Source of the DNA: an uncultured Bacteroides sp.
Lineage (GTDB): Bacteria > Bacteroidota > Bacteroidia > Bacteroidales > Bacteroidaceae
Length of the DNA stretch: 64,000 bases
Direction of reading: 5' to 3'
Assembly (NCBI GenBank): GCA_947646015.1
Contig: CANSEY010000001.1
Location: forward strand, 310,001 to 374,000
Below, piece after piece: positions 23,341 to 64,000 of this stretch (position 1 is the first letter of the stretch; every line of letters starts with the position of its first letter). The notes below the pieces were generated by a model, which did not search any database, had not been told where the DNA came from, and saw nothing but the letters and a program-made list of their open reading frames with translations. A program made the translations under genes and the position numbers.

Positions 23341-23380
23341 CACCCGCAATCAGGAAATAACTGATACGCAAATAAGGATT

Positions 23381-23453
23381 GATTCGCTAGCTCAGCAGGT
23401 AGAGCACAACACTTTTAATGTTGGGGTCCTGGGTTCGAGCCCCAGGCGGATCA
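23381..23453 (+). tRNA. tRNA-Lys (anticodon UUU)
   Basis: 73 nt with a full cloverleaf: acceptor GATTCGC/GCGGATC, D arm GCTC...GAGC, anticodon stem CAACA/TGTTG with loop CTTTTAA (anticodon TTT at 23414-23416), T arm CTGGG-TTCGAGC-CCCAG and discriminator A. CCA is not encoded. The gene is intact and is followed by the integrase of the mobile element, so its 3' end is the likely attachment region. Confidence 0.96.
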
Positions 23454-23489
23454 CATAAGAACAAAGCCAAACGGCGACAAAAAAGAGAC

Positions 23490-23526
23490 AAGTCCTACAA
23501 TATCAACGTATTGTAGGACTTTTTTT
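23490..23526 (+). terminator. Terminator after tRNA-Lys
   Basis: 13-bp perfect stem (23490-23502 with 23509-23521), 6-nt loop, T7 tail. Confidence 0.9.
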
Positions 23527-23586
23527 ATGTTTCAGTCTTGCCTGAAAGACAAAAAAGGGGCACGAAAAGACACACTTTAGTATCCA

Positions 23587-23628
23587 AATCGTACCCCCTT
23601 CCCCAAAAAACGATTAGGGGGTACGATT
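23587..23628. repeat. 13-bp inverted repeat before the element integrase
   Basis: AATCGTACCCCCT (23587-23599) and its reverse complement (23616-23628) with a 16-nt spacer rich in A. It lies between tRNA-Lys and int, where arm-type integrase sites or an operator of int are expected. Confidence 0.6.
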
Positions 23629-23725
23629 GTCGGAAAATGGCTTACTTTTGACGTGATTTGTCTATACTCTATTTATCTCATTTTCAGTGATTAAAATTAG
23701 TTTTGCAATCTAAAAAAGTGAGATT

Positions 23726-24955
23726 ATGAAAAATGAAAAGAGTACATTCAGCGTATTGTTTTACCTGAAAAAAGACAAGATGAAAAAGAATGGTTTAGTA
23801 CCCATTCATGCCCGTATCACAATCAACGGCAAACAAACCCAATTCAATACCAAGTTAGAAGTCTTTGAAACTAACTGGAAATCCGGCAGAGCCATAGGTA
23901 AATCTATGGAGATACAAAGGCTTAATTCCATGCTGGACGACATCAAAGCAAATATACGCTCCCACTTCCACAATCAATTAATGCGGGATAGTTATGTTAC
24001 ACCCGAAAGCGTGAAAAATGCACTATTGGGAAAAGAGGAAGAAGCAAATACCATTATTTCTTTTTTTACTCAACACAACGACCAATACAAGAAAAAGGTC
24101 GAAGCGGGAGAAGCGACCCCAAAAACATACAGCAGATACGAACTAACCAAGTTACGCCTGACTGAATACATGAAAGATGAATATCGTGTATCAGATATGC
24201 CGATACGCCAAATCAACAAGGTATTCATCGAGAACTTCTACCTATATATAATAAAGAACCACGATTGTTCCCCCAATACGGCAATGAAGTTTATCCAGCG
24301 TTTCCGCACAGTGATAAACTTTGCACAAGGTACAGGATTGATTACTGCCGACCCGTTCGCCAATTATAAACTGAAATTCGAGTATATAGAAAGAGGGTAT
24401 CTTGACAAAGACGAAATAAGCAGATTGTGCAATAAAGAATTTGCTTCAAAGCGGTTGGAACAAGTGCGGGATATATTCATTTTTAGCTGCTACACGGGAC
24501 TTTCATACGTGGATATATGCGAATTAACCAGCAACGATATACGTTTGGCATTTGATGATAATTTGTGGATTATAAAGAAGCGTCACAAGACAAAAGTAAC
24601 ATCGAATATCCGGTTACTGGATATTCCGAAAGCTATCCTAAATAAATACGAGGGGAAACTTAAAAACGGTCAGCTATTACCAGTTATCAGCAATCAAAAG
24701 ATGAATGATTATTTGAAAGAAATTGCCATCGTATGCGGAATTGACAAAAACGTGACATTTCATCTTGCCCGCCATACGTTCGCAACGACCATTACCTTAG
24801 CGAATGGTGTACCCATAGAAAGTGTTTCTAAAATGCTGGGACACACTGATATTCGCACTACTCAAATATACGCAAAGGTGGTAGATACGAAGTTGAGTAA
24901 CGACATGGAATTATTGGCACAAAAAATCAATATCAAAAGCCCTGTTACTTTATAA
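23726..24955 (+). CDS. int: Integrase of the conjugative element (IntDOT-like tyrosine recombinase)
   Basis: 409 residues: arm-binding domain (about 1-95), core-binding domain (about 105-205) and catalytic domain. His346 and Arg349 (HLARH), His373 (LGHTD) and nucleophile Tyr382 (TQIYAK) are present, but the first catalytic arginine is replaced by serine (Ser260 in CYTGLSYVD). The same substitution is known in IntDOT of CTnDOT, which remains active. Position right after tRNA-Lys and a terminator marks the left end of the element. A short hairpin follows the gene. Confidence 0.9.
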   Translation: MKNEKSTFSVLFYLKKDKMKKNGLVPIHARITINGKQTQFNTKLEVFETNWKSGRAIGKSMEIQRLNSMLDDIKANIRSHFHNQLMRDSYVTPESVKNALLGKEEEANTIISFFTQHNDQYKKKVEAGEATPKTYSRYELTKLRLTEYMKDEYRVSDMPIRQINKVFIENFYLYIIKNHDCSPNTAMKFIQRFRTVINFAQGTGLITADPFANYKLKFEYIERGYLDKDEISRLCNKEFASKRLEQVRDIFIFSCYTGLSYVDICELTSNDIRLAFDDNLWIIKKRHKTKVTSNIRLLDIPKAILNKYEGKLKNGQLLPVISNQKMNDYLKEIAIVCGIDKNVTFHLARHTFATTITLANGVPIESVSKMLGHTDIRTTQIYAKVVDTKLSNDMELLAQKINIKSPVTL

Positions 24956-45464: not shown

Positions 45465-46298
45465 TTAATTTAAAAGTTTATTATTGTAGTATTCTTCTAT
45501 AAGATTAAGATTTACATTTTTCATCATAGAAGAATGTATGATAATATTTAATCCTTGTGGAAGAGAATTTGAGTTCATAAATTCAAAACAGGTTAAAGTA
45601 AATAGCAATATTCTTTGTGCTGGTTTTTTTATACCGCTTTGTCCTGTACCCATCAATGGCATATAGATAGGACGGCTATTTGCATTTTTATTGAGACAAA
45701 TACTCAAATTATAAATAACATCCTTAAATTCGTGTGTATCAATATATGCATGGTCATCTTTATCAAAATGTGTCATTGCAAGAAGTATATAACAATTCTT
45801 TCCATCACGAATTTTTGCACATGTTCCTAAAGCATATTTTTTATTTTTTCCACCATTTTTTCTTTGATCATTTTCTTCAAATGCAATTCCGGTCAATGAC
45901 TGCTCTATTTTATCATCTAACTCTTGTAACCTATCACCAAAATATTGATTTATAAATTTACCATGTATAGTATTTTTTGCAATAATTATATCATTAACAA
46001 TCGTATCAAAGTATTCATTTACAGGAATAACTATTACGCCTTCAAATTTGAAAAGGTCTCCTTCCGTTACGGTCACAATGAATTTAGAATCTAATTGTAA
46101 TATGATTTTTTTCTTCCTCTGTATCTGATATAAGCCATAACATATACATATTGCTAAAATCATTAATCCACCAGCCAAAGTCTCATATATGGATAGTTTT
46201 GTGGTATTCCAATCACAGATAAAAACAACCAAAGTTGCAACTGAAGATAGTGCGGCAAGGGCTGCGATAAATTCTTTCCAAAAGAGTTTAATTATCAT
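45465..46298 (-). CDS. thsA: Membrane-anchored macro-domain effector (type II ThsA-like)
   Basis: 277 residues. Two N-terminal membrane helices (about 10-28 and 40-58), then a macro-like domain: FEGVIVIPVNEYFDT at the start and IYMPLMGTGQSGIKKPAQRI as the glycine-rich ligand loop. This TM-TM-macro layout is that of type II Thoeris ThsA, where a nucleotide signal bound by the macro domain triggers the membrane part and stops growth. AT-rich compared with the transfer genes on both sides, suggesting later acquisition as cargo. Confidence 0.8.
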   Translation of the reverse strand: MIIKLFWKEFIAALAALSSVATLVVFICDWNTTKLSIYETLAGGLMILAICICYGLYQIQRKKKIILQLDSKFIVTVTEGDLFKFEGVIVIPVNEYFDTIVNDIIIAKNTIHGKFINQYFGDRLQELDDKIEQSLTGIAFEENDQRKNGGKNKKYALGTCAKIRDGKNCYILLAMTHFDKDDHAYIDTHEFKDVIYNLSICLNKNANSRPIYMPLMGTGQSGIKKPAQRILLFTLTCFEFMNSNSLPQGLNIIIHSSMMKNVNLNLIEEYYNNKLLN

Positions 46299-55921: not shown

Positions 55922-56476
55922 TTAGCGTTGCCACCCGAATATCAGGTAGCATACCGCCAAATATACAATCAAAAAGATAAGAAATTTTATCCGCATTTTC
56001 TTTTCCTGCGGGGTGGGATGCAGCCATTTGACAATGCGTGTACGCATCGTCAGGGGACGGGGCATCATAACTTCGGCAAGTTCCTCAAAAGACTTGCAAG
56101 CGAAAATCGTTTGCCGGAAATCTTCCGCGCTGTCCCAGCATTCTTCCTCGAACCACCATCCTTTGGGGTATCTCTCCGCTATCCTCTCTTGCAGTTGGCG
56201 CAGGGAGAAAGGTTCGGTAGTATCTTCATACTCCGTTTCGTAACGAATCATCCCCGTGTGCATCCCCGTGAATCCGTGTATGCCTTTCCATCCGGTCATA
56301 TAGGAACGTTTGACGGTGTACTTTGTCCCGGTGGAATCTATCACTATCTCACCCTTCCACCCGTCAGCCTCTTTCAGTATGGCAAGCTGCGTGGTTTGGT
56401 TCTCCTCCCAAAAGGTGTAAACCATATTCTCGTCCGGGCTGAACTCAAATATCGGATATTTCAATTTCGCTTTCAT
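55922..56476 (-). CDS. Immunity-array protein with C-terminal membrane segment
   Basis: 184 residues. The soluble N-terminal part (MKAKLKYPIFEFSPDENMVYTFWEENQTTQLAILKE...) is followed by FSLRQLQERIAERYPKGWWFEEECWD and a C-terminal membrane helix (IKFLIFLIVYLAVCYLIFGW). I do not recognise a family. Distal gene of the array, with no hairpin repeat separating it from the next gene upstream; both may form one cassette. Toxin partner unknown. Confidence 0.65.
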   Translation of the reverse strand: MKAKLKYPIFEFSPDENMVYTFWEENQTTQLAILKEADGWKGEIVIDSTGTKYTVKRSYMTGWKGIHGFTGMHTGMIRYETEYEDTTEPFSLRQLQERIAERYPKGWWFEEECWDSAEDFRQTIFACKSFEELAEVMMPRPLTMRTRIVKWLHPTPQEKKMRIKFLIFLIVYLAVCYLIFGWQR

Positions 56477-56489
56477 TATTTCCTTTGGT

Positions 56490-56984
56490 TTATTTTTTTG
56501 TTGTTACATAGATTACAAATAATGATAACAGATCAAATAAGGTAGGAATCATCCACAACAGCCACATAGGAATCGCATCCTTCCATATACTTTGTCGGTA
56601 GTGGTGCTTGATAGCCGCCACCCTGTTTTTTCTGTATCTCAACAAACACCACAGATCCGGCGGAAGTGCTATTGCAACAAATATTGGAAAAAGAAAAATC
56701 ACTACCTCCAGTATCGGATGAAGATTATCCGTTAAATTTATTTTCACCAATATATCTCCCAGTATATTGGTATAGTGAGGAGCAAAAAAAGGTAGAAGCG
56801 GAAAGAAAACAAACCCGATCCAATACAATGTTATTAACATATTGCCTGAACTTCTTGGATATTTCTTGCTGTATCGCTCTCCCTGATAATAGAGGTAGTC
56901 AACAAAGTTGTACCTGTAATTTCGTGCTTGCCGGGTTATCCGGTTACGCTCAAAATAATTATCCGTTTTTTTTATGTCTTTCAC
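56490..56984 (-). CDS. Polytopic membrane protein of the immunity array
   Basis: 164 residues with three or four membrane helices (MLITLYWIGFVFFPLLPFF, LEVVIFLFPIFVAIAL, MWLLWMIPTLFDLLSLFVIYV). It starts with GTG at 56984, overlapping the TGA of the interrupted gene upstream by four bases (GTGA). Membrane immunity proteins commonly neutralise toxins acting on the inner membrane or periplasm, but no family is recognised here. Confidence 0.65.
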   Translation of the reverse strand: MKDIKKTDNYFERNRITRQARNYRYNFVDYLYYQGERYSKKYPRSSGNMLITLYWIGFVFFPLLPFFAPHYTNILGDILVKINLTDNLHPILEVVIFLFPIFVAIALPPDLWCLLRYRKNRVAAIKHHYRQSIWKDAIPMWLLWMIPTLFDLLSLFVIYVTTKK

Positions 56985-57283
56985 TTGGTCAGGAAATAGT
57001 TGTTTATCATACTTTTTACTTCTTCGAGCCAGTTCTCCCGCTGTTCTGCCGAACTGTCCGCAGCCACACGGTACATTCTCCGGTCAAAAATGGTAACTCC
57101 GCAAAAATCGAAAATGCAATCTTTCCAGATACGTTCCAAAGGATCGCCGAACACCTCATTTTCCCGCTTTTCGGGAGTATTCGACGTGTTGAAAACAAAA
57201 TTACCGATACTTTCATCTTATATTCTTTTTGTTTTATTTTGATTGACTATTGCTTTCTGTTTTGCTATCTGTTCTCGAATCAT
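56981..57283 (-). pseudogene. Array gene interrupted by an in-frame TAA
   Basis: ATG 57283 opens MIREQIAKQKAIVNQNKTKRI, then TAA (57218-57220), and the same frame runs 78 more codons (DESIGNFVFNTSNTPEKRENEVFGDP...) to a TGA overlapping the start of the next gene. Together they read as one protein of about 100 residues. No good alternative start exists between, so it is probably a nonsense-inactivated gene whose coupling to the downstream gene remains. Confidence 0.6.
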
Positions 57284-57307
57284 GTCAATTCCTGTTTTCA
57301 CTAATTG

Positions 57308-57742
57308 TCAGTAACTATACGGACTTTTGAAAACAATATGATCCGCTACTCCGAGTTCCTTTCGTTTGGTTTCAAATTCCTGTCGGGTTAGAGGACCGAA
57401 AAAGTTATCCTGTGCATCCCACGTCTGTGTATTGTCTATCGGGATGATGCAATATTCCGTTATACTTTTATCGTAGGTGGTGAAAAGGCTGTCCCGTCCC
57501 GTTCTCGGCACTTCCTTGTATTTCTTTGTGATGATGAAATGCTCATCGTTGCCCACTTCATACACACCATGTCCCCCGATGCCCGCATAGATGTCGGAAG
57601 CGTTATGGTAACATACTCCCAAATCTTCCATCGAGTCTACGGCTATCAGGTAATAGTTACCCGTGATTTGACGTTTGTAAACTAATGTTCCGCAACTGGC
57701 AATACCAAGCAACAATACAATATATACTATCCATCTTTTCAT
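57308..57742 (-). CDS. DUF3997-like lipoprotein, predicted immunity protein
   Basis: 144 residues, signal peptide with lipobox GIASCGT. The body GNYYLIAVDSMEDLGVCYHN...YAGIGGHGVYEVGNDEHFIITKKY resembles DUF3997 proteins seen near toxin-immunity loci. An envelope-anchored position would fit blocking a toxin in the periplasm. Followed 24 bp later by the interrupted gene without a repeat between, so these distal genes look like a multi-gene cassette. Confidence 0.65.
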   Translation of the reverse strand: MKRWIVYIVLLLGIASCGTLVYKRQITGNYYLIAVDSMEDLGVCYHNASDIYAGIGGHGVYEVGNDEHFIITKKYKEVPRTGRDSLFTTYDKSITEYCIIPIDNTQTWDAQDNFFGPLTRQEFETKRKELGVADHIVFKSPYSY

Positions 57743-57762
57743 TTCTATCGTTTATTATGTAA

Positions 57763-57803
57763 TTCTGCTAACAGCGTTTAGCTGTTTAGGTGATTGTTAT
57801 AAA
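57763..57803 (-). repeat. attC-like repeat 7 (short form)
   Basis: Array strand: ATAACAATCACC, then a hairpin AACAGC-TAAAC-GCTGTT with an extended stem, ending earlier than the other copies. The most divergent repeat of the set. Confidence 0.6.
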
Positions 57804-57804
57804 C

Positions 57805-58236
57805 TTATCTTATTCCTTTCAATTCTTCTTTCATTCTTCCTTTTAGATGAAAATAAGCCAGCACGCCAAGGGCGTTGAATAATGCGGTTTCATCTTGATT
57901 GCGCCCTAATGCGTTATAGAATTTTGCAACATTCCGATAAGCCAATATTAGAAAGATTAAATAAACGACAACTAAAATTCCCCCACTGAATACAAGCGTA
58001 CAAATACCTATCAATGAATTTCTATTGTATGCTTTATACTGTTTTTCAGCTTCATCATAATCGTAGTTTGTTAAATAACCAAATTGTTGCAAATCTTCTC
58101 TGCTCCACCCTCTCTCTCCCAATAAGTTGATAGCATAATCACGAAGTTTATCATCATAGCCATAACGCTTATAATTTTTCACTACGTCTATCAACTTGTC
58201 ATTATCAAATTTATTAAGAATTTCAAAGTCTTCCAT
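57805..58236 (-). CDS. Predicted immunity protein with two membrane helices
   Basis: 143 residues. A soluble helical N-terminal part (LNKFDNDKLIDVVKNYKRYGYDDKLRDYAINLLGERGWSREDLQQFG) is followed by a long hydrophobic stretch (SLIGICTLVFSGGILVVVYLIFLIL) and a basic amphipathic tail. Not a family I recognise. A cassette on its own, bounded by hairpin repeats on both sides. Confidence 0.65.
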   Translation of the reverse strand: MEDFEILNKFDNDKLIDVVKNYKRYGYDDKLRDYAINLLGERGWSREDLQQFGYLTNYDYDEAEKQYKAYNRNSLIGICTLVFSGGILVVVYLIFLILAYRNVAKFYNALGRNQDETALFNALGVLAYFHLKGRMKEELKGIR

Positions 58237-58253
58237 ACAGCTTCATTTATGTT

Positions 58254-58303
58254 TATAATGGTTTGGTGAGGAACAGCGTTAAGCTGTTATCTCGACCTTG
58301 TTA
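58254..58303 (-). repeat. attC-like repeat 6
   Basis: Hairpin AACAGC-TTAAC-GCTGTT with flanks TAACAAGGTCGAG and CCTCACCAAACC. The TAA of the upstream gene is part of the repeat's TAACAAG motif. Confidence 0.75.
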
Positions 58304-59194
58304 AATGTTTAATTCCTTGCATATCTTTTTATATTCATCTCCCCACAAATTGGCAAAGCATCTACCTTTTGATTTTACCTTAGCGGCAGTAAAATATTCC
58401 TTTGCCTTATTTATATCCTCATTCTTATAGTAACAGACAGCCACATAATAATCTTTTTCGCCTGAATCAATACGACCATCCGATACAAAATCAAAAGTAT
58501 CAAAAACCCTCGCCCAGTGTAGAGCCATTGTATATTCCTGCATTCGCAAGTATGTAATTACCATGTCACATAACAGATGATAGCCCAAATTTTGTGCTGT
58601 TTTAGGTTCGGGCAACATATCCCAATAGCGTTTGATTAAGTCAATCATCTTTTCATGTTCATGACTTTCGCAAAGTGCGGTTTCGTCTATATATTGATTG
58701 AACAGGTCTCCGTCTTCATCGAAAGCGGGAAATACTTTTGTTTTAGCAGTAATTGTTTTTGAAGAGGATTTTTTCTGTTTCAAATCCACATTTTCAGAAA
58801 GCCACTGCAAATACTTTTTCCCATTTTTGAATATCTTTTTTCCTTCAATCATATAGGTGCGGAGAAGAAACTCTTTTGCATTATTATAATCTTGCAATTC
58901 AAAATAGTTTTCTCCTATGCGTAGTAGAATGAAAGGATTATCTATCTCTCCTAATTTGTAACATCGGCAGAAATAATTTAATGATGTTCCATAATCCTGC
59001 ATCATAAAGTAGGCATCGCCAACAGAAGCGGAAAGCCAAATATAGGCATCCCATTTTTCTTTAGGAAGAGGGAGTAGTTCTTCGGCTTTCTGAAAAAAGA
59101 CCATAGCATTTTGATAATCTTTATCATCCATTGCCTTATTTCCTTGCTTTGACAATTTCTCTATTTGATCGTATAGTGTGTTTGGTAGTTCCAT
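58301..59194 (-). CDS. TPR-like repeat protein of the immunity array
   Basis: 297 residues made of tetratricopeptide-like helix pairs: GNKAMDDKDYQNAMVFFQKAEELLP, GDAYFMMQDYGTSLNYFCRCYKLG, GENYFELQDYNNAKEFLLRTYMIEGKK, and a C-terminal VCYYKNEDINKAKEYFTAAKVK. TPR proteins occur among predicted immunity proteins as binding scaffolds. No signal peptide, so cytoplasmic. Its stop codon overlaps the downstream repeat. Confidence 0.75.
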   Translation of the reverse strand: MELPNTLYDQIEKLSKQGNKAMDDKDYQNAMVFFQKAEELLPLPKEKWDAYIWLSASVGDAYFMMQDYGTSLNYFCRCYKLGEIDNPFILLRIGENYFELQDYNNAKEFLLRTYMIEGKKIFKNGKKYLQWLSENVDLKQKKSSSKTITAKTKVFPAFDEDGDLFNQYIDETALCESHEHEKMIDLIKRYWDMLPEPKTAQNLGYHLLCDMVITYLRMQEYTMALHWARVFDTFDFVSDGRIDSGEKDYYVAVCYYKNEDINKAKEYFTAAKVKSKGRCFANLWGDEYKKICKELNI

Positions 59195-59205
59195 ATAATT
59201 GCATT

Positions 59206-59258
59206 TAATGGGTTGCAGCTTGCCGCCGTTAGGCGGAACAGGTGCATGTTATCCGCTT
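59206..59258 (-). repeat. attC-like repeat 5 (GC stem type)
   Basis: Array strand: ATAACATGCACCTG, then a perfect stem CCGCC-TAAC-GGCGG and CAAGCTGCAACCCATTAA. Same ends and loop as the other copies but another stem sequence. Confidence 0.75.
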
Positions 59259-59273
59259 AATTTATTTCCATAA

Positions 59274-59744
59274 TCATAAATATGGAAGTTCATTATTTTT
59301 AATTCTATCCATTTGTGTTTTGAACAATGGAATAAAAGCCATTGCATCAAAATCTTGAAAGCGGTCTTTGTATTTTTTCAACATTTCGCAAACGTAATTA
59401 CAAATATCAGTGCAGAGTTTTTGCCTAATTTCATCTTCTGTCAAATTCAAGTAGTCATCCAAAGCAAACATTTGGTCAATAACAAGCTTTTCTTTTGCCT
59501 TTATATACCGAGCATACGACTTTAGTTTGCCTTTTTCTATTTCGCTTTGATGAAATAACCTTAAAACAACTAATAACGCAGTATTATGATTTTCTGCTTT
59601 ACGCAGTTTATCATTTATTGAATTTTGCCAAGTCCAATCATTGAAATTATCAATAATGTAGTTTGCTACTCTTTTTATTATTTGTCTTTGTAATTCTACA
59701 GCAACGAAATGTAATTCATACGTTGCACTTATAAATCTTACCAT
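59274..59744 (-). CDS. Predicted all-helical immunity protein
   Basis: 156 residues, helical and soluble (FVAVELQRQIIKRVANYIIDNFNDWTWQNSINDKLRKAENHNTALLVVLRLFHQSEIEKGKLKSY). No motif I can name. Single-gene cassette with a repeat on each side. Confidence 0.65.
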   Translation of the reverse strand: MVRFISATYELHFVAVELQRQIIKRVANYIIDNFNDWTWQNSINDKLRKAENHNTALLVVLRLFHQSEIEKGKLKSYARYIKAKEKLVIDQMFALDDYLNLTEDEIRQKLCTDICNYVCEMLKKYKDRFQDFDAMAFIPLFKTQMDRIKNNELPYL

Positions 59745-59760
59745 GATGTTATTTTTAGTG

Positions 59761-59815
59761 CGGATAATGGTTTGGTGAGAAACAGCGTTCTGCTGTTGTC
59801 TCGACCTTGTTAGCT
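59761..59815 (-). repeat. attC-like repeat 4
   Basis: Array strand: GCTAACAAGGTCGAGAC, hairpin AACAGCAGAACGCTGTT (stem AACAGC/GCTGTT with AGAAC loop), TCTCACCAAACCATTATCC. Starts 8 bp after the upstream stop codon. Confidence 0.75.
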
Positions 59816-59822
59816 ACGTTCC

Positions 59823-60452
59823 TTATTGCTCCATTTTTCGTTTTACAATATCTATAAACTCCTCTTTAGTCATGAACTTATTTAGGAAATCTTCCAATGT
59901 TCCTTCATTAGTAACCTCTGTAAAAAACACCTCATGGTCTGTGCCCCACACTATTGGATTGTCGGGATTAAGGTCTGATAAACAGATGTAATGATAATTG
60001 GGATAACTCTCTGTACAAAGCAATCCCACAAAGTTAGGAGTGGCACAGTTTGAATGTTGGATGATTTCGTCCAAATCTACATCATCATCATCGGAAAACC
60101 AATCATTCCAATCTTCAAAATCTTTCGTGCCTTTTTGAAGTGGAGTGAAAGGTTTAGCTACCCAAAATAATTGTCCACGAGGTTCTTCACTTAATGTATA
60201 GTAGGCATCTACCATTTTCTTATAAAATGCCTCTCTATCATAATTGAACAATTCTATATTTTCATCCACCCAATCACCTACACCCATAATTGGCTCTGTG
60301 TCTTCGGCAGACAACCAAGGCGTATCTATTGGCTTTTTATACAATGCTGTATTGAAAGTTATGGCGCATAAATCTTCCTGTAAAGACATTCCTTTTACAT
60401 TGGCAATATTACCACCTAATTGCTTTATTCGGTTTATAATTTCCTGTTTCAT
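59823..60452 (-). CDS. SUKH (SMI1/KNR4)-like predicted immunity protein
   Basis: 209 residues, acidic, cytoplasmic. The C-terminal part ATPNFVGLLCTESYPNYHYICLSDLNPDNPIVWGTDHEVFFTEVTNEGTLEDFLNKFM follows the SUKH pattern (presentation of small and polar residues, WG-D-H, aromatic cluster, terminal helix). SUKH proteins are the widest immunity superfamily in polymorphic toxin systems. No matching toxin gene nearby, typical of orphan acquired immunity. Confidence 0.65.
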   Translation of the reverse strand: MKQEIINRIKQLGGNIANVKGMSLQEDLCAITFNTALYKKPIDTPWLSAEDTEPIMGVGDWVDENIELFNYDREAFYKKMVDAYYTLSEEPRGQLFWVAKPFTPLQKGTKDFEDWNDWFSDDDDVDLDEIIQHSNCATPNFVGLLCTESYPNYHYICLSDLNPDNPIVWGTDHEVFFTEVTNEGTLEDFLNKFMTKEEFIDIVKRKMEQ

Positions 60453-60470
60453 GACTTTTATTCGTTTGTA

Positions 60471-60522
60471 GCTAATGGTTTGGTGAGAAACAGCGTTTAG
60501 CTGTTAGATCTACCTTGTTACC
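60471..60522 (-). repeat. attC-like repeat 3
   Basis: Array strand: GTAACAAGGTAGATCT, hairpin AACAGC-TAAAC-GCTGTT, TCTCACCAAACCATTAGC. Begins 9 bp after the upstream gene stop. Confidence 0.75.
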
Positions 60523-60530
60523 AATATAAT

Positions 60531-60962
60531 TTATAAGGAAACAGATATCCATTTTTGCTTCCATGAAGAATATCTTTTCTTAGAATCCAAAAGCCATTTG
60601 CCTTTTTTCAGTAAGAATATATATTGCATCTTTTCTTGCATAGGCTCTTCTCTGTATGTGTGAACTACAATTTTATTTTTTCCTTCATCTACTATATCGG
60701 TTATTTTCTCTTCATCAACATCATATTCATAAGAACCTTTCACACCATAAGATATACTGTTAGGTTTGCCATACTTTCGTTCACGAGGAGTACAGTAGGT
60801 CAAAAAGATTTTTGATACCAATTCTTTTTGCTTGTTAAACTGTTCTTCAAATGAGAGTTCACTCTGTTTTTCAATATCATTACATGTAACTTCCCATTCG
60901 TGCATATTCTGCATGAATTGAAGCAACAAATTTTGTATAGCTTCTTTTAGTTCTGTTTCCAT
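60531..60962 (-). CDS. NTF2-fold-like predicted immunity protein
   Basis: 143 residues. A helical N-terminal half (LLLQFMQNMHEWEVTCNDI...) and a strand-rich end (KIVVHTYREEPMQEKMQYIFLLKKGKWLLDSKKRYSSWKQKWISVSL) match the general shape of NTF2-fold immunity proteins, including the WLLDSKK strand. Single-gene cassette. Fold assignment is by pattern only. Confidence 0.6.
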   Translation of the reverse strand: METELKEAIQNLLLQFMQNMHEWEVTCNDIEKQSELSFEEQFNKQKELVSKIFLTYCTPRERKYGKPNSISYGVKGSYEYDVDEEKITDIVDEGKNKIVVHTYREEPMQEKMQYIFLLKKGKWLLDSKKRYSSWKQKWISVSL

Positions 60963-60981
60963 ATCTGTTCTATATTATTGG

Positions 60982-61030
60982 TAATGGGATGCAGCTTGCC
61001 GCCGTTAGGTGGCACAGGTGCTTGTTATCG
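60982..61030 (-). repeat. attC-like repeat 2 (GC stem type)
   Basis: Array strand: GATAACAAGCACCTGTG, stem GCCACC-TAAC-GGCGGC with one mismatch, then AAGCTGCATCCCATTA. Directly abuts the stop codon of the upstream gene. Confidence 0.75.
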
Positions 61031-61534
61031 CTACATTTGGCTAATGCAATTGGTTAATATACCGCTAATCTCCTTACAGTCGCCAACTAATTCTTCCAAT
61101 TCGCTTTCATCCATAAAATCTGCTAATTCATATTCTTGTGGGGCATTTATAAATTTGTTCAGACCACTTAGAAGTAGCATTGCATCATCTTTTGATGTAG
61201 AAATAGAAAAGAAATTAGAATATTTGCTATTAGGGTCTAATTCTTTTATATCAACCTTTCCATTTTTTATACTTTCCAGTAAAATGGCAGACAAGTCTAT
61301 TATTACATCAATAGCCATATCGAAATGCGGTTCGTAAGACTCATTTATGCTAAAATAAACATCTCCTCCATTCACCGAGTTTTCTTTTAATAAGGTATTC
61401 AAATGAATATCGGATAAAATTTTGCTTAATTCTAAGTTGCTTTGTTTCTGACTTCCGAAATAGTCCAGCAATAGAAAGGTATCATCGCATCCACCGACAT
61501 AATTGCCCCACCATTTTTTAATGTAAAGTTCCAT
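61031..61534 (-). CDS. Predicted immunity protein, family unknown
   Basis: 167 residues from ATG 61534 (MELYIKKWWGNYVGGCDDTFLLLDYF). Soluble, alpha/beta, acidic at the C-terminus (YELADFMDESELEELVGDC). The WWGNYVGG-D-LLLDYF opening is seen in uncharacterised proteins close to polymorphic toxin loci. Single-gene cassette between two repeats of different stem type. Confidence 0.65.
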   Translation of the reverse strand: MELYIKKWWGNYVGGCDDTFLLLDYFGSQKQSNLELSKILSDIHLNTLLKENSVNGGDVYFSINESYEPHFDMAIDVIIDLSAILLESIKNGKVDIKELDPNSKYSNFFSISTSKDDAMLLLSGLNKFINAPQEYELADFMDESELEELVGDCKEISGILTNCISQM

Positions 61535-61564
61535 ATTCAATATTTTTTAGTTTGTAATTTATTT

Positions 61565-61619
61565 AGCGATAATGGAATGGTGAGGAACAGCGTTTAGCTG
61601 TTATCTCGACCTTGTTAGC
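61565..61619 (-). repeat. attC-like repeat 1
   Basis: Array strand: GCTAACAAGGTCGAGAT, hairpin AACAGC-TAAAC-GCTGTT, CCTCACCATTCCATTATCGC. First repeat after the recombinase-proximal gene. Confidence 0.78.
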
Positions 61620-61625
61620 AAAATA

Positions 61626-62420
61626 TTATACCCATTCTAATATTGGGTTAGGTCTATGAACAAGATACTGTTTATTACCCGGAATTGAAAATGTTATTCC
61701 TGTAATGCGATTTCGTTCAAGTTCCTCTTTTAATTTGTCAGATATATAGATCATCCATGAAAAGTCGGGTATTTGAAATAAATCCATTGAAAAATCAAAA
61801 GAACGATTAAAATATATTTTATCAACTCGTTCAAAACTCCAATACTCCTCGGATAAAGTAGATATTTGTTTTTGATTTTTTTCTCTTAGCTTTGCTGTTT
61901 CAGATAACTTATTTATCATTTCCGATATAGTTTTGTTATGTATAGGCAAGTTCTCTACATCTTTTCTATCTCTGACTAAGAGATATTCTCCTGCATTTGT
62001 TTTTATCCGAATATTAGATTTTTCATAATCAATCATTCCTAATATATTATTTTGAATATAGGTAAAGTCATAATGTAGAGCGTAATAGTTGGCATCTACC
62101 TTATTCCTTTTTTTAGGCATATAAACATCTACATTAAAAAACCGATGTTCGGGTAAAGAACAAAGTTCTATGATGTTTTTGACCTTTTCGGATATACACA
62201 AATGCTCTATCGGACTGAAAATAAAATCATTCAGCCTATTAAATTCCACATCATCATAAATCCTAATTTCAAGATTTAAGTCGGGAATTTGTTCAGGATA
62301 TGCACCGTTTTCTTTAATATATTCTCTCAAAGAGAATTTTGGTTGCTTTTTCCAATAGTTCTTTGTAAACTCCGCAGAACTTGTGTCCTCTACTTCTAAT
62401 ACATAGTATCCTTTGTTCAT
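61626..62420 (-). CDS. Predicted immunity protein, DUF1629-like
   Basis: 264 residues from ATG 62420 (MNKGYYVLEVEDTSSAEFTKNYWKKQPKF); an upstream GTG at 62456 is weaker. Mixed alpha/beta, soluble. The opening KGYYVLEVE and PDLNLEIRIYDDVEFNRLNDFIFSPIEHLCISEKVKNII resemble DUF1629 (Imm11/Imm43-like) immunity proteins. First cassette after the recombinase, the position where newly gained cassettes are expected. Confidence 0.6.
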   Translation of the reverse strand: MNKGYYVLEVEDTSSAEFTKNYWKKQPKFSLREYIKENGAYPEQIPDLNLEIRIYDDVEFNRLNDFIFSPIEHLCISEKVKNIIELCSLPEHRFFNVDVYMPKKRNKVDANYYALHYDFTYIQNNILGMIDYEKSNIRIKTNAGEYLLVRDRKDVENLPIHNKTISEMINKLSETAKLREKNQKQISTLSEEYWSFERVDKIYFNRSFDFSMDLFQIPDFSWMIYISDKLKEELERNRITGITFSIPGNKQYLVHRPNPILEWV

Positions 62421-62494
62421 AGACTTTCTGTTTTTGCTAATGTATTCAATAACCACACCTTATGGTGTAGTTCCTAATCTCTAATATCCACACC
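62421..62494 (-). other. Recombinase-proximal junction, attI-like position
   Basis: 74 bp between the recombinase stop and the first cassette ATG. It contains CACACCTTATGGTGT and a second ACACC further along, so a small hairpin can form, but it does not share the AACAAG/CCATTA ends of the array repeats. By analogy with integrons this is where a primary attachment site should be. Confidence 0.35.
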
Positions 62495-63598
62495 TCACGA
62501 ATCATCCAGTGTATCAAGTGGATTGGGTATGCTTGATTTATGGGCACTCGTTACATGAAGATATATACTTGTTGTCTTAATGTCATTGTGCCCCAGCAAC
62601 TCCTGTATGGTTCTTAGATCAGTACCTTGTTCCAGTAAATGGGTAGCGAAAGAGTGACGGAGCATGTGTACATGTACCCGATGTTTGATACCTGCACGTT
62701 CGGCAGCTTCTTTCAGTATTTTCACCAATGCACTTGCCGAATATTGCTCACCGGAAGTATCACCCTCAAACAGCCATTTCTTCGGACGGTACTCTTTGTA
62801 ATATGTTCGTAGCTCATTCAATACTTTTTCTGATAACAATGAATAACGGCACTTTTTCCCTTTACCCATTATGCGTACTAACATCCGTTCGCTAATGATG
62901 TCTTTCGGGGTAAGGTTCAGCAGTTCGCTTCTTCTTAGTCCGGCAGAATATATCAGCGAAATCATGCAATGATGTTTCAAGTTAGGCAAACAGGAGAGGA
63001 TACGGCTTATCTCATTACGGCTAAGCACTTCGGGCAGTGTCTTGTACTCTTTGGCACGTGTAATTCCGCCGTAATATTGCCGCTTGCCACCTTTTACTTT
63101 CTCGTAGTAGAACTTGATAGCGTTAATGCGCATATTCTGTTGTGACACGGAGATTTTTTTCTCATTTACCAAATAAAGTATATAGTGATTGATGTCCGCC
63201 ACTTTCAGACGGTCAATGTTACGCCCTTTGTGATACTCCATGAAATCACTGAAATAAATCCTGTAAGTCTTGATTGTCGAGGGACTGTAACGCTTCTGTT
63301 CCAGTAATTCCAAATAGCCTTTCGGCAGCACGTATTCACGTTGGGGTTTAGGATGACGAACATATACCCGGCTGTAATCAATATAAGCGTGGGGAGAGTA
63401 ACGAGTGTAGAACTCCGAAAGCCGGAAAGTGGATGCTTGTATGTATGCACTTCCGTTCCCGATTGTTTTAATTCCTTTGTCTTGCGAAAGTAGCAAGGCA
63501 ATAGTCTGATTATCGGCATATTCTATCCGTATATAATCCTGACCGTCTATATTTTGTTTTGTCAGTACGATACTTCCCCGTTGTTTGCTTGCATCCAT
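62495..63598 (-). CDS. XerD-type tyrosine recombinase of the immunity array
   Basis: 367 residues. An N-terminal extension (about 1-105, ending PKPQREYVLPKGYLELLEQKRYSPSTIKTY), a SAM-like domain (about 110-190), and a catalytic domain with complete residues: Arg in YSAGLRRSELLNL, Lys in MGKGKKCRYSLL, HMLRHSFATHL, LGHNDIKTTSIYLHV. Quite different from int and from the shufflon invertase. Array genes follow in the same direction, a layout reported for recombinase-associated immunity clusters in Bacteroidales. Confidence 0.9.
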   Translation of the reverse strand: MDASKQRGSIVLTKQNIDGQDYIRIEYADNQTIALLLSQDKGIKTIGNGSAYIQASTFRLSEFYTRYSPHAYIDYSRVYVRHPKPQREYVLPKGYLELLEQKRYSPSTIKTYRIYFSDFMEYHKGRNIDRLKVADINHYILYLVNEKKISVSQQNMRINAIKFYYEKVKGGKRQYYGGITRAKEYKTLPEVLSRNEISRILSCLPNLKHHCMISLIYSAGLRRSELLNLTPKDIISERMLVRIMGKGKKCRYSLLSEKVLNELRTYYKEYRPKKWLFEGDTSGEQYSASALVKILKEAAERAGIKHRVHVHMLRHSFATHLLEQGTDLRTIQELLGHNDIKTTSIYLHVTSAHKSSIPNPLDTLDDS

Positions 63599-63648
63599 GT
63601 AGGGCTTGTTTTATAACATTACAACTCTCATTAATTAAATGATATTGC

Positions 63649-63656
63649 CAAAGTTA
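63649..63656 (-). promoter_or_regulatory. -7 element of the array recombinase
   Basis: Minus-strand TAACTTTG fits TAnnTTTG, 51 bp before ATG 63598. A -33 TTTG is not clear. It may drive both recombinase and array. Confidence 0.45.
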
Positions 63657-63755
63657 TAAAACTATCCCGAATAAAGTAAACGAACGTTTTCTTTTTATCT
63701 TTTTTTTGCACAGACAATTAGGGCAGCAAGGGGAGCAGCGTTCAATGGAGACTGT

Positions 63756-64000
63756 TTAGCGTTTCAACAAGGAGTAAACAGCATGTAAATGTTTGGAGAG
63801 TTTTTCGGTGTTCAGTCCACCTAAAAAAGACATTTCAAAGGATAACCCCATGTAAACCTGCCGGAACATGACTACCGCATCCTCCACATCCACATCCTCT
63901 CTTAGTTCTCCGGTAGCTATGGCACGTTGTATAGCGGTACGCCAGTAAGCATAATCAACTTCTACAAGATTACGGAGTTTTTCTTTTGCATCAGGATCGT
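63756..64000 (-). CDS. TetR/AcrR-type regulator, C-terminal part
   Basis: About 81 codons ending ...EKLSKHLHAVYSLLKR at TAA 63756; the 5' part is beyond the window. The helical sequence with TAIQRAIATGELREDVDVEDAVVMFRQVYMGLSFEMSFLGG resembles the ligand-binding half of TetR regulators (the ATGELREDVDVEDA block is typical). Whether it belongs to the element or the chromosome cannot be told. Confidence 0.7.
   Translation of the reverse strand, partial: DPDAKEKLRNLVEVDYAYWRTAIQRAIATGELREDVDVEDAVVMFRQVYMGLSFEMSFLGGLNTEKLSKHLHAVYSLLKR

Follow-up and report, generated by a model that had tools for sequence, protein, structure and literature searches.

The window analyzed here is a stretch of 64,000 nt from an uncultured Bacteroides sp. 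(GenBank assembly GCA_947646015.1, contig CANSEY010000001.1, positions 310,001 to 374,000). Near the right end of a 41-kb integrative and conjugative element (ICE), it contains a tyrosine recombinase gene followed by an array of small genes. It is very probable that this region constitutes an integron-like cassette platform, whose recombinase would act at an attI-like site and at hairpin sites between the genes. The reading is built on features that the sequence itself contains: the structure of the sites, complementary ends specific to each cassette, attI, sharp borders, the reuse of identical cassettes and the ends of the ICE. An earlier sequence-only reading had taken the region for an integron-like array of recombinase-associated acquired interbacterial defence (rAID) genes, a type of cluster whose original description is reportedly that of Ross in 2019. 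The cassette borders it suggested were borne out nearly to the base.

The array is located between the recombinase gene (62495-63598, minus strand), correctly named from the letters alone and matching Phage_integrase in Pfam (4e-39), and ICE genes extending from 56984 downward. It comprises seven one-gene cassettes, the genes of which (57805-62456) have sites at both borders and are, as had been stated, all co-directional with the recombinase on the minus strand. The attI-like site (62441-62494, minus strand) consists of the hairpin ACACC-ATAA-GGTGT and about 15 further nucleotides ending in TACA, followed by TTA of the first cassette. Cassette 1 (61573-62440) harbors an Imm11 gene (61626-62456, with an ATG at 62420) and a site at 61573-61617; its ends TTAGCAAAA and TTTTGCTAA are complementary over 9 nt. 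Complementary ends of 9 nt each were also found in cassette 2 (60985-61572; Imm68 gene at 61031-61540, site at 60985-61027) and cassette 3 (60476-60984; Imm-NTF2 gene at 60531-60962, site at 60476-60520). Cassettes 4 (59768-60475; gene at 59823-60452, site at 59768-59812) and 5 (59209-59767; gene at 59274-59744, site at 59209-59251) encode unknown proteins of 209 and 156 aa, respectively, and have ends of 8 nt. A TPR gene (58301-59194) makes up cassette 6 (58259-59208; site at 58259-58303, ends of 7 nt), while cassette 7 (57758-58258; ends of 8 nt) contains a gene for 143 aa (57805-58236) in which hydrophobic stretches were recognized by eye. The site of the latter cassette (approximately 57758-57799) is decayed at its 3′ end. 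Several cassettes recur in other loci. The cluster of cassette 1 occupies position 5 in L003, 3 in L011 and 12 in L113; cassette 2 is also present in L003, cassette 3 in L026 and cassette 4 in L003 and L113, and cassette 7 is matched in L003 and L125 with 93-94% nucleotide identity. A polarity of the array with older cassettes at the distal end, suggested by the shared cassette 7, was dropped because in L003 further sites come after this cassette.

The intergenic sites are mostly 42-50 nt long, form hairpins and have the general form TAAC...CA, exchange point, TTA. Two types were distinguished. Type A (TAACAAGGTCGAGA..TCTCACC..CATTA) gave DNA folding z-scores of -3.8 to -5.6 on the coding strand. 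Type B (TAACAAGCACCTGT..GCAAGCTGCA..CATTA), whose two copies are 92% alike, gave -0.4 and -1.6 on the coding strand, and -3.5 and -3.6 on the other strand. Rfam yielded no match across 56000-64000. Around each gene, the bases that follow the site upstream (TTA N5-6) and those that precede the site downstream (N5-6 TAA) are reverse complements of each other. These stretches lie about 0.46-0.91 kb apart in the window, and pairing across a single site does not occur. Since they adjoin only in a circularized unit, they make sense as the ends of an excised circle.

A structural finder requiring only TAAC, a hairpin and ATTA was applied to a first set of 36 sequences (the window, L003-L036 and L046). 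Downstream of the recombinase and on the gene strand it detected 185 sites, compared to one upstream and six on the opposite strand, so that the hairpin repeats noticed between the genes were confirmed. Seven sites were reported in the window, at least one of which is false as it lies inside a gene. Complementary ends of at least 5 nt were present, without any selection, in 89 of 117 distinct consecutive site pairs, compared to a mean of 3.1 and a maximum of 11 in 2000 shuffles. The second set comprised 16 stretches unused in the setup of the finder though inspected beforehand (12 of the second recombinase subfamily, four without an intact recombinase in view). It contained 95 sites on the array strand vs. 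one on the other, and 44 of its 76 pairs had complementary ends (shuffled mean 1.9, highest 7). For pairs at most 900 nt apart, a limit picked post hoc, the figure was 42 of 48. The two flanks of one and the same site were complementary in only 2 of 169 cases in the first set and in none of 95 in the second. A finder for bare AAC...ATT proved too loose and was kept out of these statistics.

The recombinase is a protein of 367 aa with an extra N-terminal domain of about 90 aa. Its alignment with relatives revealed the invariant residues R222, K246, H311, R314, H337 and Y346, which we take to be the catalytic ones. All NCBIfam models scored below their cut-offs, the best being XerA/integron integrase with 213 bits (cut-off 220); the integron integrase (IntI) model reached 195.6 bits (cut-off 265). 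The nearest PDB chain is 2a3v, an IntI protein (1.8e-36), the alignment falling into two pieces. By hand count, 65 residues separate the catalytic lysine and histidine, compared to 107 in 2a3v and 66 in the XerC-like 4a8e. The integron-specific I2 insert is thus absent from the recombinase, which has about 42 residues fewer than 2a3v in this interval. The predicted structural model (predicted local distance difference test score, pLDDT, 83.6; predicted template modelling score 0.57) likewise shows no extra helix there and a beta-beta-alpha-beta-beta-alpha-beta order in the N-terminal domain. When the first 79 residues were folded separately, one model reached a pLDDT of 77.6 and the remaining four 41-51, and the result was not used. 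The protein appears to work like an integron integrase that is devoid of the hallmark I2. Recognition of folded sites would then need another part, perhaps, as a conjecture, the N-terminal domain.

Xer-like spacing and the missing I2 helix would suit an enzyme that recombines the sites as ordinary double-stranded DNA, the hairpins and complementary ends being by-products. Such a course is nevertheless improbable, because the sites share little sequence beyond TAAC...ATT while their pairing is preserved by compensatory change, and because the complementary ends, hundreds of nucleotides apart in the array, adjoin in the circle. Among 22 diverse sites (of 25 non-redundant ones), compensatory changes were found in all 11 stem pairs. 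In an alignment of 97 distinct rows, drawn from the best 150 of 378 model matches and biased toward the model, 87.3% of the cells were paired, compared to 58.1% after shuffling and 31-44% when the alignment was slid; double-change cells numbered 317 vs. 105.9 in shuffles. The covariance model produced the 378 matches at E<=1, and the best 300 of them came from 52 sources (the window, its flank L001 and array loci). By contrast, it gave no match at the same threshold in 46 other loci, namely 45 with more distant Xer-like recombinases, many of them with short downstream sequence, plus L005, which is closely related but has no array. Nor were such sites detected beside distant Bacteroidota recombinases including the N-terminally extended ones of L045, L052, L054 and L064, several of which have short downstream sequence.

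A chain search that rewards complementary ends, and hence provides no independent evidence of them, resulted in a catalogue of 273 cassettes in 50 of 54 sequences. Ends of at least 7 nt (mostly 8-10 nt) were assigned to 256 cassettes, which have a median length of 588 nt and 32% GC, compared to 49% for the recombinases; in 254 of them the longest open reading frame (ORF) is on the expected strand. Joining a cassette's own ends around its site lowered the mean folding energy from -8.1 to -12.4 kcal/mol (better in 253 cassettes, equal in three, worse in none), a gain that partly follows from picking cassettes with complementary ends. The base preceding TT is A in 255 of the 256 sites, and in as many the folded coding strand has C.A at the exchange point, which corresponds to a G.T wobble on the opposite strand.

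The cassettes fall into 163 clusters. Fifty-six of these have more than one member, and in 51 of the 56 both the left and the right neighbours differ, locus ends being counted as neighbours. Among 143 cassette pairs with at least 92% identity, the flanks differ on both sides in 112, on one side in 22 and on neither in nine. Identity at the borders is 0.83-1.00 inside the cassette and mostly 0.23-0.6 beyond it, the drop occurring at A|TT (121 and 125 pairs). On the left, the first T has 1.00 and the preceding CA 0.96 and 0.84, followed farther out by mostly 0.26-0.62 with one motif position at 0.82; on the right, 0.98-1.00 persists through TTA, the next position drops to 0.23 and later ones are at 0.26-0.77. 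Thirty-eight pairs from different loci, including the twin arrays L027 and L028 of one genome, are identical to the letter, 13 of them with both flanks different, 16 with one and nine with none. One cassette of 635 nt is letter-identical in L046 and L118, two loci with recombinases of different subfamilies. The attI of L118 ends in G and this base was left outside the cassette, which maps the exchange to the position immediately 5′ of TT.

The attI-like sites immediately follow the recombinase stop codon; each comprises a small hairpin plus some 15 nt, the last base before TT being A or G. For 90 pairs that differ in their first cassette, chosen for the same attI type and at least 80% identity, the identity falls from 0.89 at +2 to 0.31 at +3. 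The flank of the window is matched by L003 (95.98% nucleotide identity) up to 62438 and by L125 (95.1%) up to 62437, where divergence begins. The attI-like site beside the recombinase is the predicted point of cassette insertion. On the same recombinase and ICE flank (95-96% nucleotide identity), L003, which shares some cassettes, and L125 carry arrays differing from that of the window, and L017 combines flanks of 82-91% identity with other cassettes. Among these different species or genomes, the identical gene order that would have counted against the sequence-only reading was not seen.

Homologous recombination between dispersed hairpin repeats, with the recombinase merely nearby, might also shuffle cassettes. 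Sites of the same type are indeed similar, as the two type B copies illustrate, and some arrays have no recombinase within the stretch read. On the other hand, different site types adjoin in every sort of order, identity breaks off at a single point, recombinase and sites co-occur, and attI serves as a border though it is unlike the sites in sequence, all of which renders this explanation very improbable. That each cassette is a small transposon mobilized by a transposase encoded elsewhere is hardly conceivable: the units do carry inverted ends of mostly 8-10 nt, but these vary between cassettes so that no shared transposase could read them, and the sites stand head to tail on one strand (see the 185, one and six sites above) with the ORFs in the same direction.

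The content of the arrays was studied by Pfam analysis (E<=0.001) of 150 representative cassette proteins. Among the 25 of 55 families listed, which overlap, were SUKH-1 (8), SUKH-6 (6), PoNi, Imm-NTF2 and leucine-rich repeats (5 each), Imm5 and Imm22 (3 each), Imm43, Tdi1 and Imm11 (2 each) and one Y2 transposase. No family could be assigned to many of the proteins, which may include a toxin. In the window, matches touching protection concern Imm11, Imm68 and Imm-NTF2. Of the families previously proposed for it, DUF1629 (the former name of Imm11), NTF2 and TPR were recovered, and Imm68 had been overlooked. SUKH could not be retained, since no window gene matched a SUKH model at E<=0.1, and DUF3997 stayed below the cut-off (E 0.009). 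The statement that toxins are lacking was checked for the window genes by Pfam and NCBIfam only. The gene of the Y2 (IS91-like) transposase constitutes a cassette (L022:11194-14320, also in L004 and L014) with the ends TTCAAGGCA and TGCCTTGAA and its own hairpin site; L022 contains two tandem copies.

Taking these results together as an integron-like platform, the recombinase would act at the hairpin sites closing each cassette and at the attI-like site next to the stop codon of its gene. On departure, a cassette would circularize by the joining of its two ends. One strand of the site in this circle, perhaps the non-coding one, would then adopt a hairpin that contains an outer box (NNNNNTAA/TTANNNNN), next an unpaired spacer, and finally an inner box and a loop, and the recombinase would link the folded site to attI or to another site by an exchange just 5′ of TT. 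With single and largely immunity-type cassettes, an array could gather protection from the toxins of neighbours, and the ICE would spread the entire platform. That the window recombinase is the enzyme at work, that its substrate is single-stranded, which strand is chosen and that the cassettes protect are the conditional parts of this scheme.

Several points weigh against it. The recombinase lacks the I2 helix which integron integrases use on folded attC sites (passages of PMC7790495), and excision and integration are processes that we infer from sequence patterns. Complementary ends are absent in 28 of 117 and 32 of 76 unselected pairs, some of which are due to missed or false sites. In the covariation alignment, double-change pairs (11 vs. 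10.2) and further pair types (27 vs. 30.4) did not exceed the shuffles. The strand evidence is modest. Folding stability favours the non-coding strand in 189 of 256 cassettes and stem A.C outnumbers G.U by 38 to 7, half of it in one column; together with C.A at the exchange point this hints at the non-coding strand as the substrate. Mismatches of the A.C and G.T kinds beyond the end arms were judged uninformative because of base composition. Finally, nine genomes have sites without a recombinase match. In four of them that were examined, one array has a frameshifted recombinase copy and three have none in the fetched stretch.

These nine genomes emerged from a survey of 158 genomes of the genus, with thresholds of E<=1e-60 for the recombinase (both subfamilies) and E<=1e-4 for the sites. 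The recombinase was detected in 23 genomes and sites in 30; 21 genomes have both, two the recombinase only and 126 neither. Sites were thus present in 21 of 23 recombinase-positive vs. 9 of 135 other genomes (p 4e-17, genomes treated as independent). In an even draw across the order, sites occur in 4 of 393 genomes, one of which is that of the window. Within the family, 16 of 301 genomes match the second recombinase at E<=1e-90, a cut-off that takes in both subfamilies. Viral contigs contained only distant recombinases (18 loci, best 43%). In L149 (G023:C1:1734000-1752000), about a dozen cassettes lie beside a recombinase whose matches fall in two frames.

The position of the array on an ICE, already recognized from the sequence, is corroborated by genes for TraJ, TraM, TraG, a relaxase, a coupling protein, RteC and an integrase, and by a 23-bp direct repeat at 23577-23599 (plus strand) with its right copy just beyond the window at 64689-64711 (L001:689-711). 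The tyrosine integrase (23726-24955, plus strand; Pfam) and a tRNA-Lys gene (23381-23454) are close to the left end. Integrase, relaxase, tra genes and end repeats are those of a CTnDOT-like ICE, and transfer of the element is predicted from them. As further cargo, the ICE carries a Thoeris-type ThsA macro-domain protein (45465-46298; Pfam 2.9e-47, PADLOC 1.7e-72). L125 (G017:C1:2375000-2392000) has the recombinase flank and a small array beside a junction matching window positions 23371-23734 on the tRNA-Lys side; the tra region of the window is unmatched in the 17 kb read, and the locus looks like an ICE remnant.

Downstream of the decayed site of cassette 7, a gene with a weak DUF3997 match (57308-57742, minus strand) has no intact site of its own and may be a cassette remnant. 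The next two genes (56490-56984 and 55922-56476, both on the minus strand) probably belong to the ICE backbone, because they are siteless and matched beyond the last site in L125 (86% nucleotide identity) and L017 (90%), respectively. Hence, the proposed number of at least nine cassette genes was reduced to seven bounded by sites. The genome of the window possesses a second array (L002, G000:C64:2395-7929) with ten sites and nine cassettes, eight of which have 8-11 complementary nucleotides. It unites site types of both recombinase subfamilies, and a recombinase was not found in the 12 kb read.

rAID loci are operationally defined by a recombinase homologue upstream of at least two co-directional genes below 41% GC (passages of PMC12247911). 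The window fits this definition, in line with the previous assignment: its recombinase is 46% identical over the full length to that of L126, though the two belong to separate subfamilies, and the seven genes are co-directional, with 29-36% GC in the six cassettes measured. The same passages mention conserved intergenic motifs, to which the sites and the covariance model correspond without comparison to the published motif, as well as immunity genes and mobility. L126 is probably the reference locus of B. fragilis NCTC 9343, for which dual-SUKH proteins are described there, since its ORFs 5 and 10 encode dual-SUKH proteins that are 70% identical. It has the same anatomy as the window, with an attI-like site, hairpins and complementary ends of 7-11 nt in 12 of 14 rows; the remaining two, near ORF 5, suffer from a false site that lies within the gene. 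The dual-SUKH cassettes have common outer arms, diverged hairpins and four cassettes between them, which argues against a recent tandem duplication. According to these passages of PMC12247911, it is not yet clear how rAID arrays gain second gene copies, and their build-up was under active research in 2025. The anatomy turns this question into a concrete mechanism with a predicted exchange point and proposes an answer to how rAID loci are built: rAID arrays, the window's included, look like integron-like cassette arrays. This would explain how gut bacteria gather defences against the toxins of their neighbours and, if true, amount to an acquirable memory of toxins. With the site model and the rule of complementary ends, rAID cassettes can be listed at once and their toxin partners sought.

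The core consensus of attC sites in integrons is RYYYAAC...GTTRRRY. In the sites analyzed here AAC is present, with A instead of G before TT in all except one. Since neither this core nor an IntI protein with the I2 insert was found, the system does not qualify as an integron proper, while its putative way of working matches: imperfect hairpins have covarying stems, the ends are complementary in the circle, and the 90 pairs indicate a conserved attI beside the recombinase gene. It is somewhat more probable than not that a separate class of integrons exists in gut Bacteroidales, in which a Xer-like recombinase lacking I2 but equipped with a particular N-terminal domain acts on folded single-stranded cassette sites; the cassettes would be mostly immunity genes, be common to at least two recombinase subfamilies and travel on ICEs. 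Such a class would question the rule that recombination of single-stranded cassettes requires the I2 helix (passages of PMC7790495). If it exists, it was overlooked because enzyme and site core differ from the targets of integron searches. Within Bacteroidetes proper, a large survey reports one new complete integron, that of Salinibacter (passages of PMC9024848), and Bacteroidota are listed among the phyla with integrons (passages of PMC9668308). Neither set of passages mentions rAID, so the whole class may have been missed. In titles and abstracts of the literature, with subscription journals mostly outside coverage, attC-like folded cassette ends in Bacteroidales were not found. Chromosomal integrons of Treponema (passages of PMC3607928) differ by their IntI-type integrase and their location in spirochaete chromosomes. 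What separates the window system from integrons is the enzyme without I2 and with an extra N-terminal domain, ATT instead of GTT, and sites of mostly 42-50 nt. What they have in common are single-gene cassettes, an attI adjoining the recombinase, exchange at X|TT, the existence of arrays without a recombinase, and imperfect hairpins with outer and inner boxes, an unpaired spacer and unpaired bases. The complementary ends of attC comprise 9-11 nt (passages of PMC2727003), compared to mostly 8-10 nt here, and where integrons recombine the non-coding strand (passages of PMC2727003 and PMC8946536), the window system may do so too.

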